Shown one piece after another: positions 5,921 to 43,041 of a stretch of 64,000 nt of DNA. The stretch comes from Halorarum halophilum. GTDB taxonomy: Archaea > Halobacteriota > Halobacteria > Halobacteriales > Haloferacaceae. Position 1 is the stretch's first letter, and the number at the start of each line of letters is the position of its first letter. The notes under the pieces are model-generated. The model was not told the DNA's origin. It did no database searches and worked only from the letters and a program-made list of their open reading frames with translations. The position numbers and the translations under genes were made by a program. Location: NCBI RefSeq assembly GCF_013401515.1, contig NZ_CP058529.1, positions 2,480,001-2,544,000 of the forward strand, in the 5' to 3' direction.

Positions 5921-6059
5921 CGCCGGCCGCGGGTTCCAGGTTTTTCGCTCCCGTCGTTTCGATCACGCTTGCGCTCCGTCGAGCGGCGCGGCTACTCGGG
6001 ATCTCGGTCGAACCGATAGCGAGTTGGAGGGACGCGTGTGTCGGGGGGACTCGGCCCGG

Positions 6060-7091
6060 CTACTCCGGCTTCAGGCCCGCGTCCTGGACGCGCATGACGG
6101 ACTCGCCGTCGGCCAGGTTCGGGGCGTCGACCAGCCGAACGATGCGCTTGTCGCCCTTCGACTTGCGGAGGTACATCCGGAACGTGGAGGTGTGGCCCAG
6201 GATGTTCCCGCCGATGGGCTGGGTCGGGTCGCCGAAGTAGGAGTCGGGGTTGGAGGCGACCTGGTTCGTCACGAGCACGACCGAGTTGTACAGGTTGCCC
6301 ACGCGCATCAGGTCGTGGAGGTGCTTGTTCAGCTTCTGCTGGCGGTCGGCGAGCTGGCCGCGGCCGACGTACTCGGCGCGGAAGTGAGCTGTGAGCGAGT
6401 CGACGCACAGCAGGCGGACCGGGAACTCGTCGTCCTCGTGCTCGCTCGCGACCTCCTTGGCCTTCTCGGCGAGGAGGATCTGGTGGTTGGAGTTGAACGC
6501 CTTCGCGACGTGGATCTTGTCGAGCACGTCCTCCAGCAGCGCCTCCATCGCCGCGTCGTCGCCGGGGTTCCCCTCGATCTCGCGCTCCTCGAGGAGCGCC
6601 TCGAGGATCTCGTCGTCCAGCCCGCGCACCATGTCGTCGATGCGCTCGGGGCGGAACGTGTCCTCGGAGTCGATGAATATACAGCTACCCTCCAGCCCGC
6701 CGTACTCCGCGGGGAGCTGGACGTTCACCGCCATCTGGTGGGTCACCTGCGACTTGCCGGCGCCGAACTCGCCGTACACCTCGGTGATGGACTGCGTCTC
6801 GAGCCCGCCGTCGAGCATCTCGTCCACCTCGGGGATGAGCCACGAGAGCTTCCCGATCTGCTTGCGGCGTTCGAGCACCTGTGCGCCGGACTCGAACCCG
6901 CCGACGTCGGCGGCCTTCCGCGCGCCCTGGATGATGTCGTTCGCCGTCGAGTCGCCGATGTCCGCGGTGTTGCCGAGCTCGCTGGGACTGGCGACCGCGA
7001 TGCTCTGGTAGCTTTCGAAACCCGCTTCCACTAGTTTGTCGGCCGTCGCCGGCCCGACGCCGGGGAGGCTTTCGAGGTCGTCCTCTGCCAT
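6060..7091 (-). CDS. radA: DNA repair and recombination protein RadA
   Basis: A 343-residue archaeal RecA/Rad51 recombinase, catalysing ATP-dependent strand exchange in homologous recombination. It shows an N-terminal helix-hairpin-helix domain ([17 protein letters not shown]), Walker A GEFGAGKS at residues 107-114, a Walker B region [15 protein letters not shown], and the L2-like segment [16 protein letters not shown]. No intein is present in the Walker A region. The ATG at 7091 is preferred because a TATA-like TTTATG (minus strand, 7119-7124) lies about 28 bases upstream, giving an almost leaderless mRNA; an in-frame start at 7121 would lie in the promoter. Confidence 0.97.
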
Positions 7092-19757: not shown

Positions 19758-20369
19758 CTACTCCCAGGGGTGGCCGCCGCGGCGGCCGGGCCAGAGGGGG
19801 TACCAGTACTCCTTCTCGGGTTCGAGGTCGAGTTCCCCGTCGAGCACCGACTCGAGTTTGCCCTCGATCCGCTTGTCGTGCTCGCCGTCCTTCGGGGCGA
19901 ACGGGTAGTAGGCGCCGCGGCGGAACGAGTACACCCAGTAGGCTCGGTCGCTCGAATCGCTCGTCCGCTCGAACCCGAAGACCGCCGCGAGCAGCCGCGA
20001 GCCGTATCCGCGCTCGACGAACGTATCCGCCGCGAAGTGGACCGAGGTGACCAGGTCCTCGGGGTCGTCGTCGGCGAGCACGACCCAGTGGTAGCCGTGG
20101 TCGTCCTCGTGCCGGCGGAACTCGGTGCCCGTCTCCTCGCTCCCGGCGTGGAGGATGTCCTCGACCTCCTCGACGGTCGAGGCGAAGTCGGTGGAGTCGA
20201 CCGAGGAGAAGCAGAGCGCGGCCTCGCCGACCGGGGCGAAGCCGAGGTCGGCCTCCATCGTCACGTAGGCGGTGCTCATCCCGAACAGGTCGTCGGGGTC
20301 CGCGTCGCGCGTGGCGTCGCTCTCGGCGCTGATGCCGAGCGCCGCCTTGACGGAGTCGAACAGCCCCAT
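19758..20369 (-). CDS. pspAB: PspA-associated protein PspAB
   Basis: A 203-residue soluble protein beginning MGLFDSVKAALGISAESDAT, with the conserved middle TAYVTMEADLGFAPVGEAAL and a C-terminal EKEYWYPLWPG. This matches the PspAB family described in comparative studies of the PspA envelope-stress system; its biochemical role is not known. It overlaps the stop of rmuC by one base and is therefore co-transcribed with it. HtpX, a membrane protease often linked to the same stress response, lies 640 bases beyond rmuC on the same strand. Confidence 0.8.
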   Translation of the reverse strand: MGLFDSVKAALGISAESDATRDADPDDLFGMSTAYVTMEADLGFAPVGEAALCFSSVDSTDFASTVEEVEDILHAGSEETGTEFRRHEDDHGYHWVVLADDDPEDLVTSVHFAADTFVERGYGSRLLAAVFGFERTSDSSDRAYWVYSFRRGAYYPFAPKDGEHDKRIEGKLESVLDGELDLEPEKEYWYPLWPGRRGGHPWE

Positions 20370-21361
20370 CAGCTCCCCTCCCCGTCGGCAGCGCCCTGCC
20401 CGTCGGCGGCGAGTTCCCCGTCGGCCGCGAGCGACGGCCCGTCGATCCGGTCGAACTCACCGCGGAGCCGCTGGTACTGCCGGTCAACGTCCTCGGCCTT
20501 GTTCGCCGCGTTCCGGACGTGCGTCTGCAGGACGCCCCACTCGTCCTCGACCGAGGCGAACGCGTCCCGGAGCGAGTCGAGTTCGGCGGCGACCTCCTCG
20601 GCCTGCTCGGAGAGCTGTCGCGCCTGCACGTCGGCCTTGATGAGTTCGAGCTTGTGGCCGAAGGTGAGCGGCGAGACCACCTGCACGCCGCGGCGCGTGT
20701 ACTCGCGGAGCAGGTCGTACTCCTCGGTGACGAGGTGGTAGTAGACGCTCTCGGAGGGGATGAACGCGAACGCGAAGTCGGTCGTGCCCGCCGCGGGACG
20801 GACGTAGTCGGTCGCGATCTTCTCGAGCTGCGACTCCACGTCGCGCGCGAACGCGTCGCGGTAGCGGGCGGCCTCGTCCTCGTCGTCGGTCCCGACGGCG
20901 CGCTCGTAGTTGTCCAGCGGGAACTTCGCATCAACGCAGACGAGCCCCGACGAGGTGCGGATGTGGGCGTCGGGCGTCTTCCCGTCGACGACGCGCTCGC
21001 GGAGGCCGTACATCTCGGGCGGCAGGTGGTCCGAGAGCAGCACGTCGAGCTGCTCCTCGCCGAAGGCGCCGCGCTTCCGGGGGTCCCGGAGCATGCTGTC
21101 GAGGTCCGAGTGGAGGCTCCGCATCTTCCCCGCGTGCTGCTCGATGCGGTCCACCTTCTCGGCGAACTCGAGGTCGGTGAACGTCCGGCTCACGGCCGTG
21201 GTGAGCGCGTCCGAGTCGACCTCGACGTCGGTGTCCTGGGCACTGAGCGACCGGACGGAGAGCCAGAGTTGTAGCAGGAGAAACGCCACGACGAGCAGCA
21301 GCGTCACGGCGGCCACGAGCAGCACCGTCGACGTGGTGCCGCCCGACTGGAGCGGGAGCAT
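20369..21361 (-). CDS. rmuC: RmuC-like protein (DNA recombination limiting factor family)
   Basis: A 330-residue protein with an N-terminal membrane helix (STVLLVAAVTLLLVVAFLLL), a coiled-coil region, and the RmuC core: KRGAFGEEQLDVLLSDHLP, then VCVDAKFPLDNYERAVG, then FAFIPSESVYYHL. The VDAKFP region belongs to a PD-(D/E)xK-like nuclease fold; in bacteria RmuC limits certain recombination events. The C-terminus is coiled-coil and ends in low-complexity DGELAADGQGAADGE. It is upstream of, and overlaps, pspAB. The structured repeat locus lies immediately upstream, between this gene and htpX. Confidence 0.87.
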   Translation of the reverse strand: MLPLQSGGTTSTVLLVAAVTLLLVVAFLLLQLWLSVRSLSAQDTDVEVDSDALTTAVSRTFTDLEFAEKVDRIEQHAGKMRSLHSDLDSMLRDPRKRGAFGEEQLDVLLSDHLPPEMYGLRERVVDGKTPDAHIRTSSGLVCVDAKFPLDNYERAVGTDDEDEAARYRDAFARDVESQLEKIATDYVRPAAGTTDFAFAFIPSESVYYHLVTEEYDLLREYTRRGVQVVSPLTFGHKLELIKADVQARQLSEQAEEVAAELDSLRDAFASVEDEWGVLQTHVRNAANKAEDVDRQYQRLRGEFDRIDGPSLAADGELAADGQGAADGEGS

Positions 21362-21480: not shown

Positions 21481-21610
21481 GAAAGCCCCCGCGGGTCTCG
21501 GCTCCCGCGAGACGCTCTGCGCTCCTCGTCGGTCGGCCTGCGGCCTCCCTCCTGCGGGTGCTTGAGGCCTCGGGATTCGCCGAGATCCGCGGCCCCTTTC
21601 AGTCCCACCC
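21481..21610 (+). repeat. Structured repeat, module 1, copy A1
   Basis: 130 bp starting GAAAGCCCCCGCGG and ending GGCCCCTTTCAGTCCCACCC. The 13-base segment CGCGGGTCTCGGC near the start pairs fully, with one G-U, with GCCGAGATCCGCG near the end; the outermost GAAA also pairs with TTTC. The centre contains CTGCGCTCCTC and a GCGGGTGCTTG box shared with copies A2 and B1. No reading frame is conserved between copies. Confidence 0.8.
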
Positions 21611-21639
21611 GCTGGACGTTCGACCGAGCGACGGAGCCC

Positions 21640-21669
21640 GACTACCGAGTGTGCACGCCGTCGGTAGTC
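21640..21669 (+). repeat. Structured repeat, module 2 hairpin (copy A)
   Basis: GACTACCGA - 12-base loop GTGTGCACGCCG - TCGGTAGTC, a perfect 9-bp stem, 30 bases after module 1. The equivalent hairpin in locus B has the same spacing and loop length and related loop sequence, with its two inner pairs replaced by G-U wobbles. Confidence 0.75.
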
Positions 21670-21700
21670 TCCTCCATCGTTTGTCGGCCGACGGTCGATA

Positions 21701-21770
21701 GGATGCGTGCGGGCGCACCGCGAGCGACCGGAGTGAGCGAGCCGCGCCCGCCGGGGAGGCCTGGGGACAG
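21701..21770 (+). repeat. Structured repeat, module 3 (copy A)
   Basis: The inverted repeat GCGGGCGC / GCGCCCGC (21709-21716 and 21744-21751) encloses GAGCGACCGGAGTGAGCGAG and is followed by CGGGGAGGC and TGGGGA. The same arms and tail occur at 50.82-50.96 kb around a longer insert; the GGGGAGG ending is also found in copies B and D. Confidence 0.7.
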
Positions 21771-21796
21771 CACATAATGGCGGCTGACCGTCCAAC

Positions 21797-21927
21797 GGGG
21801 CGGGACTGAAAGGGGCCGGCTTCTGTGCGAAGCACGGCGCCTCAAGCACCGCAGCGCGAAGGAGTGGAGCGACTGAGCGCGAGGAGCGCAGAGCGTGCCG
21901 CGCGAGCGCAGAAGTCGGGGGGCTTTC
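21797..21927 (-). repeat. Structured repeat, module 1, copy A2 (inverted)
   Basis: 131 bp, read on the minus strand from GAAAGCCCCCCGACTTCTG to GGCCCCTTTCAGTCCCGCCC. The stem CCGACTTCTG pairs with CAGAAGCCGG with a single A-C mismatch, although its sequence is unrelated to the stems of A1 and B1. The centre CTCTGCGCTCCTCGCGCTCA and the GCGGTGCTTGAGGC box are conserved. It faces A1 across 186 bases containing modules 2 and 3. Confidence 0.8.
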
Positions 21928-22007: not shown

Positions 22008-22874
22008 TCAGACCGTTTCGAGTTCCCGCTCCAGGTTCCGAAGGCGCTCCACGCGCTTCTCGGTGCTCGGGTGCGTCGAGAACAGCTTCCCGACGACCCC
22101 GCTCTTCAGCGGGATGATGAAGAACGCGTTCATCTCCGAGGTCTCGCGGAGGTCGTCGTCGGGCACCTTGTCCATCCGGCCGTCGATGGTGAGCAGCGCG
22201 GACGCGAGCGCGCCCGGCTTGCCCGTGATGGCCGCCCCGCCGCGGTCCGCCGAGTACTCGCGGTAGCGCGAGAGCGCCCGGATCAGGAAGAACGAGACGA
22301 TCCAGACGGCCAGCGAGGCGACGATGGCGACGAGCATGCCGCCGTTGTTGCGGTTGCGCCCGCCGCCGAACAGCCAGCCCCAGCGGACGACCATGAACGC
22401 GATTGTCGAGAGGAACGAGGCGATGGTCATCACCATCACGTCGCGGTTCTTCACGTGGGCCAGTTCGTGGGCGAGCACGCCCTCCAGCTCCTCGTCGTCG
22501 AGGGTGCGAAGGAGACCCGTCGTGACGCAGACGGCCGAACTCTTCTGCGAGCGCCCCGTCGCGAACGCGTTCGGGACGCGCGAGTCGGCCACCGCGACCT
22601 TCGGCTTGGGCAGGTCGGCCTGCTGGCTCAGCCGAGTGATTTTCGCGTGCAGTCCCGGATACTCCTCCTCGCTCACCTTCTTGGCGCCCATCGAGTACAG
22701 CGCCAGCTTGTCGCTGAAGAAGAACTGGACGAACAGGAACGGTACCATGAGGATCAGGAAACCGGCGTAGCTCGTCTGTGAGATCACCGCCGCGAAGACG
22801 ATGTAGAGGGCGAACAGGAGGAACATCGTGAAGATCATGCGGCCGCGGAGGCCCCAGTCCGTTTTCCACTCCAT
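22008..22874 (-). CDS. htpX: HtpX-type membrane zinc metalloprotease
   Basis: A 288-residue M48 family protease of the cytoplasmic membrane. Two hydrophobic helices lie near the N-terminus (IFTMFLLFALYIVFAAVIS and GFLILMVPFLFVQFFF); the zinc site is HELAH in EGVLAHELAHVKNRD; two more helices follow, then a C-terminal TDPS-like FSTHPSTEKRVERLRNLE. HtpX degrades damaged membrane proteins and is tied to envelope stress, in keeping with PspAB two genes away. The start at MEWKTDWGLRGRM is the family start; an in-frame ATG seven codons upstream is less likely. Confidence 0.94.
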   Translation of the reverse strand: MEWKTDWGLRGRMIFTMFLLFALYIVFAAVISQTSYAGFLILMVPFLFVQFFFSDKLALYSMGAKKVSEEEYPGLHAKITRLSQQADLPKPKVAVADSRVPNAFATGRSQKSSAVCVTTGLLRTLDDEELEGVLAHELAHVKNRDVMVMTIASFLSTIAFMVVRWGWLFGGGRNRNNGGMLVAIVASLAVWIVSFFLIRALSRYREYSADRGGAAITGKPGALASALLTIDGRMDKVPDDDLRETSEMNAFFIIPLKSGVVGKLFSTHPSTEKRVERLRNLERELETV

Positions 22875-22988
22875 ACCCCATCGTAATCGCTTCACGGCTT
22901 AAACGCTGTCGTGGAGGCCCGTCCCCACTATCAGGGCGCGATATTCGGGGCGACGGCGTTTTACTGCGGACCGCTGGAGACGAATCCC

Positions 22989-25664: not shown

Positions 25665-26741
25665 ATGACCGTGCTCGGTATCGCCACGCTGGCCGACCTG
25701 CTCCGCCTCCTGGTCGTGCCGGCGTTCGCGTGGGCGGCCTACCGCGACGTCCGCACCCGTCGGCTGCCCAACCGGCTCTGGCCGCCGCTGCTCGCGATCG
25801 GCCTCCTCGCGCTGGCGCTCGACGTCGCCGCCGCGTACCCATTCGCCGGCTTCGAGGGACGGCTGTTCCTCGTCCGCACCGGCTTCTCGCTGCTGTTCCT
25901 CGTCCCGTTCTCCGTGCTCGCCTACCGGCTGGCGGCGTTCGGCGGCGCGGACATGAAGGCGCTCGTCGTGCTCGCGGTTGCCTTCCCCGCGACGCCCGAG
26001 TACATCGTCCCGACGGCGGTGCTCCCCGGGGTCGCCTGGATCCACAATGCCGTCTTCCCGCTGTACCCCTCCACGCTCGGCGTGACGGCGATGTCGGCGC
26101 TGACGAACGGCGTCCTGCTCGGCGCGGCCTTCGTCCTCTCGCTCGGGGTCAGGAACGCGCTCGCCGGTCGGATCTCGCCGGCGATGTTCGTCGGCGAGTG
26201 GACCGACGTGAGGGACCTGCCCGACCGGCACGGCTCGCTGCTCGACGCGGACGGCCCGCTCCCCTCCCGCGGGCTCGACCTCGACGCGCTCCGGATGTAC
26301 CTCCGCTGGCGACGGTCGACGCTCGAGGACCTCCGCGCCGACCCCGCCCGCCACCGCGACCCCGTCAGCGTCACCGGGACCGGCGAACCGACCGACGGCG
26401 CGGTCCACGTCGGCCCGCGGACCGACGGCGGCGTCCCGGCGGAGGGGGACGTGTCCAATCCGCCGGGGACGGCCGATTCCGACGGGCCCGCGACGGCCAC
26501 CGAGACGGCCGAGTTCGACGACCCGTGGGCGGCCGAGCGGTTCCTCGACTCCATCGAGGGGACCGCGTACGGCACCGACCCCGAGACGCTCCGCGAGGGC
26601 CTGGAGACCGTCTCGGAGGCGGACGCCGTCTGGGTGTCACCCGGGCTCCCGTTCGTCGTGCCGCTGTTCCTCGGGCTGGTCGTGTCGCTCACCTTCGGCG
26701 ACGTGCTGACGCTCATTCTCGCGGCCGGAGGACTGCTGTAG
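25665..26741 (+). CDS. pibD: Prepilin/preflagellin peptidase (A24 family, PibD-like)
   Basis: A 358-residue aspartic membrane protease. The two catalytic aspartates are visible in YRDVRTRRLPN (first cytoplasmic loop) and in the GxGD-type motif FGGADMKALV. About six membrane helices are seen, with one at the very C-terminus after a long hydrophilic region (about residues 180-330) that is larger than in bacterial TadV-like enzymes but usual for haloarchaeal PibD. It cleaves class III signal peptides of archaellins and pilins. The start at MTVLGIATLADLL removes three spurious upstream codons. Confidence 0.9.
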   Translation: MTVLGIATLADLLRLLVVPAFAWAAYRDVRTRRLPNRLWPPLLAIGLLALALDVAAAYPFAGFEGRLFLVRTGFSLLFLVPFSVLAYRLAAFGGADMKALVVLAVAFPATPEYIVPTAVLPGVAWIHNAVFPLYPSTLGVTAMSALTNGVLLGAAFVLSLGVRNALAGRISPAMFVGEWTDVRDLPDRHGSLLDADGPLPSRGLDLDALRMYLRWRRSTLEDLRADPARHRDPVSVTGTGEPTDGAVHVGPRTDGGVPAEGDVSNPPGTADSDGPATATETAEFDDPWAAERFLDSIEGTAYGTDPETLREGLETVSEADAVWVSPGLPFVVPLFLGLVVSLTFGDVLTLILAAGGLL

Positions 26742-26864
26742 ACGAGTGTGGGGGGATGTCGAGAGAGGTGATGGGAGGATGTTGGACAACGATAGCCTGG
26801 AACGCCCCACCCCCCGACGAACTGACGCACAAGACATATCGGCCCGTCGCACCTCCCCCCGCGT

Positions 26865-27242
26865 ATGAGTTCGACCGCCGAGGGCGTCGAGGTTGACTTC
26901 GGCGACGACGGGCTGGTCCCCGCCGTCGCCCAGGACGCCGACACCGGCGAGGTGCTGATGCTCGCGTACGCCGACGAGGCCGCGCTCGCCCGCACCCGCG
27001 AGACGGGTCGTGCGCACTACTACTCCCGGTCGCGCGATGAACTGTGGGAGAAGGGCGCCACCAGCGGCCACACCCAGGAGGTCGAGGAGGTCCGCGTCGA
27101 CTGCGACGCAGACGCGCTCCTCTACCTCGTCGACCAGGCCGGCGGCGCCTGCCACACCGGCTTCCGGTCGTGTTTCCACCGCACCGTCGACGGCGAGGAG
27201 GTCGGCGAACGCGTCTTCGACCCCGACGATGTCTACGAGTGA
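26865..27242 (+). CDS. hisI: Phosphoribosyl-AMP cyclohydrolase
   Basis: A 125-residue HisI enzyme opening the purine ring of phosphoribosyl-AMP in histidine synthesis (third step). The metal and active-site signature is complete: [40 protein letters not shown], and the CFHR motif. It is the monofunctional archaeal form, without the HisE domain. No other histidine gene is in the window. It overlaps the next gene by 14 bases. Confidence 0.95.
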
Positions 27243-42913: not shown

Positions 42914-43041
42914 CGAAAGCCCCCGCGGCTCTCGACTCGGGCGTCTCGCTGCGCTCCTCAGTCGCTCGCCTCCGGCTCGCTCCTTGCGGTGCTTGCGTCG
43001 TCGTCCTTCGCCGAGAGCCGCGGCCCCTTTCAGTCCCACCC
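42914..43041 (+). repeat. Structured repeat, module 1, copy B1
   Basis: 128 bp from GAAAGCCCCCGCGGCTCTCG to GCGGCCCCTTTCAGTCCCAC. The segment CGCGGCTCTCG pairs perfectly with CGAGAGCCGCG; the pair that is G-U in copy A1 is C-G here, a compensatory difference. The centre CTGCGCTCCTCAGTCGCTC and the box GCGGTGCTTG match copies A1 and A2. Confidence 0.8.

Follow-up and report, generated by a model that had tools for sequence, protein, structure and literature searches.

The facing modules A1 and A2

In the window, which is the whole 64,000-nucleotide stretch analysed here (C1:2480001-2544000 of the 4.28-Mb genome G000), an RmuC-family gene (20369-21361, minus strand) and an M48 peptidase/HtpX-like gene (22008-22895, minus strand) are separated by a 646-bp gap that harbors two palindromic modules facing each other. 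Module A1 (21481-21610, plus strand) is composed of the left box GAAAGCCCC, a hairpin cassette P and the right box CCCCTTTCAGTCCCACCC, and it matched the covariance model described below with an E-value of 3.8e-15. Module A2 (21798-21927, minus strand) faces A1 and was recognized by a covariance-model match (E 3.5e-18) and by the inverted repeats I1 and I2. Upon re-reading of the sequence, the coordinates, strands, common ends and common centre of both modules were found to be as given in the initial annotation. The same annotation described the stems as different but each complementary to its own far arm; this pairing is real, although the description is slightly generous for A2, as the A1 outer arms (GCGGGTCTCGGC versus GCCGAGATCCGC) contain one mismatch and the A2 outer arms (CCGACTTCTGCGC versus GCACAGAAGCCGG) contain two.

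The A1 left box and outer arm (21481-21502, plus strand) pair with 21579-21600 as inverted repeat I3, and the same helix covaries in 60 modules. The A1 right box (21590-21610, plus strand) and the A2 right box (21798-21818) show 95% complementarity (inverted repeat I2), and pairing between them may join the facing modules by an inner stem. The predicted folds of A1 and A2 each revealed a long paired outer stem, with single-sequence z-scores of -1.7 to -3.2, which are modest because the DNA is GC-rich. The spacer between the modules (21611-21797) contains the hairpin GACTACCG..CGGTAGTC (about 21640-21669) and a palindromic GC-rich stretch (about 21706-21753), and full-length BLAST matches revealed that other copies in the window genome have similar spacers (e.g., C1:3444345-3444777, 76% over positions 3-447). 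A third module, B1 (42915-43037, plus strand; E 5.1e-19), is single and was extended by BLAST into a conserved tail that ends at about 43101.

The window insertion was also found in the relative G391, as a collapsed hairpin that holds different nested hairpins, and the same-genus relative G026 retains the remnant GGAAGCCCCCGCGGCC at this site. This sharing makes the window copy an old one, and its inner parts were remodelled after the species diverged. The site itself gives no sign of recent movement, and the copies in the window genome are probably inactive or rarely moved. We also observed that the palindromic element (21481-21927) lies just upstream of the RmuC-family gene. In E. coli, RmuC restricts the inversion of DNA at short inverted repeats, and the adjacency is probably a coincidence.

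Distribution and architecture of the module family

A BLAST search with the 447-bp unit revealed about 40 further loci in the window genome. The right-end motif GGCCCCTTYCAKTCCY was present in 56 exact copies and in 71 copies with at most one mismatch, and its reversed control gave none; this repetition greatly exceeds chance. The covariance-model search for further copies that the initial annotation had proposed was run on this genome with a model built from 60 modules and gave 70 matches at E<=0.01, including A1, A2 and B1; a few of these matches are one place read on both strands. The window genome contains about 70 copies of one module. The facing arrangement of A1 and A2 is real, yet single modules make up the majority of the copies in this genome.

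The right-box 18-mer was found in 130 of 391 Halobacteria genomes and 49 of 86 genera (reversed control, 0), some genomes carry 40-75 copies, and all 80 named loci with the module belong to Halobacteria. The module was absent from 312 genomes of the other classes of the phylum, from the viral contigs scanned and from the phage records searched by BLAST. A search of viral contigs with the terminal repeat gave 33 unpaired matches that were mostly unrelated. The plasmid matches were all haloarchaeal and almost all unannotated, and the plasmid copies of G026 occupy positions that match those in the Halobaculum sp. XH14 plasmid NZ_CP134951. Sequence identity among copies was mostly 73-92%; the loci were fetched via the motif, and counts of intact boxes are accordingly biased toward intact boxes. 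BLAST, motif counts and the covariance model thus bore out the expectation of many intergenic copies, both genome-wide and class-wide. No Rfam family matched the module, and no haloarchaeal paper holding its sequences was found in the open-access literature searched, in agreement with the earlier remark that no named family is known to have these ends.

None of 56 modules in the window genome and one of 219 overall lay inside a gene, at a coding fraction of 84% and with gene calls that are codon-bias predictions. Relative to genes, modules can be upstream or downstream and in any orientation. The left box was never less than 47 nt from the nearest gene end, except for one slightly overlapping gene prediction (L057), and start codons were otherwise at least 79 nt from it. 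These distances would fit an element that reaches ~50 nt past the box, together with selection against promoter disruption.

Each module runs from a left box GAAAGCCCC through cassette P to a right box CCCCTTTCAGTCCCACC. The sequence GAAAGCCCC(CGCGG)CCCCTTTCAGTCCCACC, a short inverted repeat, forms the core, the centre of which is usually an 80-100-nt palindromic P with three concentric stems (an outer stem of ~12 bp, a middle stem and an apical stem). In the inner part of P, the conserved boxes GCTGCGCTCCTC and TGCGGTGCTTG flank a variable apical hairpin. GAAAG pairs with CTTTC, and the two switch together (GGAAG/CTTCC, CGAAG/CTTCG). Modules with an empty cassette, in which P is only CGCGG, are also present (empty cores GAAAGCCCCCGCGGCCCCTTTCAGTCCC).

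Facing modules 26-37 nt apart occur in many genera. The facing-core arrangement was found in the window, Haloarcula and Halonotius, and a single core between short terminal repeats was found in the QS_9/QH_7 lineage; overall, element sizes range from about 125 to 620 bp. In the facing pairs, the inner flanks of the two cores pair, as do the flanks outside GAAAG end to end (AACAGCCA/TGGCTGTT, CTC/GAG, CGT/ACG), and the outer ends of 35 such pairs covary at positions -1, -2 and -4 (0.77, 0.80 and 0.71, compared with 0.34, 0.34 and 0.29 in mismatched pairs). Conserved mismatches, CCC/CCC and others, were retained in hundreds of copies; the CCC/CCC mismatch within a module may be explained by pairing with GGGG of the facing module. 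The whole facing element could then fold as a four-way junction, whereas the computed minimum-energy fold of one facing element paired the two modules along their length instead.

Several further repeats accompany the modules. A second, smaller repeat of 56-70 bp, GTGGTTCGA[hairpin]TCGTCATCACGA[hairpin]TCGNACGAC, was observed across genera (L016, L017, L048, L057, L062, L105, L208, L263 and L264), and its larger versions contain two extra hairpins between its two hairpins. This double-hairpin repeat is also nested inside modules, with stems that differ and are still paired. Many single modules carry the repeat CCTCCCCARCCGATTCGCTC..GCTCATCCCTCGCGC to the right of the right box, and in L020, L021, L024, L027, L035 and L044, single modules are followed by this conserved repeat and a GC-rich hairpin. 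Two loci of the window genome, L040 and L041, contain collapsed elements of ~120 bp, each a fusion of the left half of one module with the right half of a module facing it (GAAAGCCCC..GGGGGCTTTC). Additionally, the element end GGGGCTTTC-TGGCTGT is multiplied in L218 (1503-1683, five left boxes at 45-bp steps) and in L097 (about 1600-1660, two), which suggests repeated use or slippage of one end.

Insertion sites and turnover of paired stems

Filled and empty sites were compared between locus L153 of Halobacteriales archaeon QS_9_67_17 and the QH_7_66_36 genome (G707), the flanks of which are 91-94% identical. The first element (L153:5175-5392, ~218 bp) was exactly missing in G707; it is flanked by ACGCCTGAG and ACGGCTGAG, and the empty site contains one ACGCCTGAG. 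The second element (L153 about 6516-6728, ~213 bp) was also missing in G707, with flanks CGCCGAGCAG and CGCTGAGCAG compared with CGCCGAGCGG in the empty site. The target duplications are 8-10 bp long and match at 8/9 and 9/10 positions, with one mismatch each, in two events within one lineage. About 20 related copies of the QS_9/QH_7 lineage have the ends GGTAGTGTTCARNTAAG and CTTATYTGAACACYACC at nearly fixed distances from the boxes, and the second inserted element has no clear terminal inverted repeat. In this lineage, the module thus rides in a MITE-like element of ~215 bp. The small mobile unit suggested by the initial annotation was in this way corroborated in a related genus by two pairs of filled and empty sites. 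The empty-looking Halobaculum sites (L302 compared with window 26660-26880; L296 compared with L071) were dropped as proof of insertion, as they are ragged with possible remnants, and a comparison of two Halobaculum plasmids gave no informative empty site.

No transposase was found between matching ends in any fetched locus. The sole long end-to-end pair (L205 4371-6141) was rejected as an autonomous parent, as it encloses pyrBI between two separate copies and contains no transposase. The first of these facing copies (L205 4372-4497, ~125 bp) has an empty P and the other lies at 5935-6142; between them are pyrB-pyrI, the aspartate carbamoyltransferase genes as named from translated sequence. 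By this arrangement, the copies could mobilise the operon as a composite.

Stem covariation was strong. Across 26 predicted pairs in 60 modules, 95.4% were paired (75.4% when shuffled), and 20 of the 26 pairs had changed on both sides. The covariation score was 0.468, compared with 0.129 for shuffled and at most 0.075 for slid alignments, and none of 500 shuffles reached the observed value. The stems therefore covary above background, as the initial annotation had anticipated. Pairs such as GC:30/UA:29 showed no intermediates. In 205 modules, we found 149 distinct 11-nt outer arms; the arms paired perfectly in 104 of the modules and matched at 10 or more positions in 153.

As evident from composition-controlled folding of 120 modules, neither strand was preferred; the mean z-scores were -4.84 and -4.59, and 53 of the 120 favoured the bottom strand. 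Raw mismatches included 81 A.C compared with 26 G.T, but C.C and G.G mismatches were skewed likewise (24:1), an excess that at least equals that of A.C over G.T. The A.C excess looks compositional, and selection for wobble pairs on the bottom strand was rejected on the grounds of this parallel skew and of the shuffled-control folding.

Comparison of copies and orthologous sites revealed how the cassettes change. Identical apical segments of 24-28 nt occur in ten pairs of Halobaculum modules, nearly all of them carried by middle and outer stems that are unrelated, and identity of the outer stem was statistically independent of apical identity (1 observed, 0.43 expected). Since one apical hairpin can occur in copies whose outer stems are unrelated, it appears that the exchange involves paired segments as units. 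At orthologous sites, the cassette was full in one genome and empty in another (L195/L210; L294 compared with L015/L271), three nested hairpin inserts of L187 were missing in L194 (flanks 95% identical), both arms had changed in coordination around a retained centre (L201/L216), and the cassette centre was inverted (L039/L285). The great majority of copies have the cassette in one fixed orientation, with four clear inversions, and in the window genome, 14 of 14 cassette centres lay inside the frame. We also observed double-hairpin inserts of ~50-55 bp in L187 and L201 of QH_7_66_36 that are missing from the orthologues L194 and L216. One type of insert (..CTCGCACGGCCCGTGG..) recurs at a matching place in two separate loci, which suggests that its insertion is target-specific.

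The strand equality, the reassortment of stems and the fast change of cassettes are all explained if paired nested segments are exchanged or inserted, and such exchange can mimic compensatory change. The step from differing stems to compensatory change, and from there to proof of selection on a folded RNA or single strand, was not upheld, given the lack of strand preference and the apical hairpins on unrelated outer stems; from the overall reading of the initial annotation, the copies, the covariation and the small mobile unit stand, and selection in the form stated does not. Pairing may be under selection, the conserved mismatches show that certain features of the sequence are maintained too, and the mosaic patterns suggest gene conversion between copies.

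Interpretation and comparison with known repeats

We consider it likely that the 447-bp unit belongs, as an old copy, to a non-autonomous (MITE-like) family of mobile DNA of Halobacteria and that its stems are kept paired mainly by replacement unit by unit. Copy number, host range, intergenic location, covariation, the two insertions with target duplication and the gain, loss and flipping of cassettes at orthologous sites are its observed parts. The insertions would have been made by a DDE-type transposase acting in trans. Each stem level would be replaced as a unit, either by conversion between copies at the conserved boxes or by insertion and deletion of hairpins, and selection or repair that keeps palindromes intact may help the stems to stay paired. 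A bolder version, which we regard as unlikely, is that the module is the substrate of a dedicated, undescribed process of concentric cassette exchange. Acting on extruded or single-stranded hairpins, this process would let copies trade entire paired hairpin segments with both arms moving together, with the stem sequence free and only pairing and a few conserved mismatches required.

A structured RNA made from the module, such as a small RNA or UTR element whose stems are kept paired by selection on the transcript, would account for the very strong covariation, the largely fixed cassette orientation and the exclusively intergenic location, but it is a quite improbable origin. Folding has no strand preference after composition control, the mismatch asymmetry looks compositional, Rfam holds no match, modules lie on both sides of genes in every orientation, and facing copies would be transcribed in opposite senses; wholesale stem turnover at orthologous sites and insertion with target duplication also argue against it. 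We give slightly less credence to long-inherited, functionless intergenic palindromes that never moved and whose arms were homogenised by template switching (quasipalindrome correction) and slippage. Such palindromes would have near-perfect arms whatever their sequence, no preferred strand and sites often common to several species, as found here; however, correction would remove the conserved mismatches that persist in hundreds of copies, and clean filled and empty sites with target duplication, as well as identical boxes in dozens of copies scattered over each genome, speak for movement.

Equally remote, and largely refuted, is the reading of the boxes as PATE-like ends of IS605-type transposons, in which near-terminal palindromes are recognised as single-stranded DNA by the Y1 transposase and P is an SMR-A-like repeat that has entered the palindrome: in its favour, the palindromic core also occurs empty, palindromes enclose nested hairpins and SMR-A repeats of ~110 bp insert into near-terminal palindromes in Haloquadratum walsbyi (PMC3119063), but TnpB (PF07282) and the Y1 transposase TnpA (PF01797) are both missing in the window genome, where the controls were detected, a relative with 41 copies also has no TnpB, the right-box motif lies within ~1.5 kb at only 2 of 30 TnpB loci of copy-rich genomes and does not flank TnpB on both sides, and the module has the target duplications and terminal inverted repeats that PATEs do not have.

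A class-wide, high-copy palindromic repeat family has been identified in Halobacteria; it is unannotated in the records checked, and its copies adjoin many promoters and gene ends. There is direct evidence of its insertion with target duplication at two sites of the QS_9/QH_7 lineage, and the family carries a caution for the search for RNA genes, as textbook covariation can arise in mobile DNA via the exchange of paired hairpins without a functional RNA. The mobilising enzyme and the joint change of both stem arms become testable questions in genetically tractable haloarchaea.

Some features are shared with bacterial repeats of the REP/REPIN, BOX and ERIC types, which are intergenic and palindromic, with facing pairs, modular subunits and mobilisation in trans. 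The module resembles them in these respects by general description; in contrast, the window genome has no RAYT-type Y1 transposase.

PATEs are related to IS605 and have neither terminal inverted repeats nor target duplication (PMC3119063). Palindromes near the termini, variable sequence past the palindrome and internal deletions that leave short forms are common to PATEs or IS605 ends and the module, whereas the module has terminal repeats and target duplication and no IS605 relation. SMR-A of Haloquadratum walsbyi is about 110 bp long, its copies are commonly >95% identical, it makes no target duplication and it targets IS605/PATE palindromes (PMC3119063). The module is likewise haloarchaeal, of ~100 bp scale and built of inverted repeats, with hairpins inside palindromes of other repeats. 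In contrast, its stems are nearly all different, its copies are mostly 73-92% identical, target duplication was seen and there is no IS605 link; double hairpins are nested in modules, and P itself was found only within its frame in the window genome.

The closest systems in behaviour are MITEs, together with the SMR-A and PATE repeats of Haloquadratum. Like MITEs, the module is short, non-coding, multicopy and intergenic, without its own transposase, for which it is too short, and in the QS_9/QH_7 lineage it has terminal inverted repeats and 8-10 bp target duplications, the latter from two events. Unlike MITEs, it has no parent transposon among the fetched loci, its distribution spans the whole class, and its internal hairpins vary freely, stay paired and are nested in several levels. 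The family is best placed with the MITEs, the parent transposon excepted, and what sets it apart are hairpins that vary freely and appear to be exchanged concentrically.
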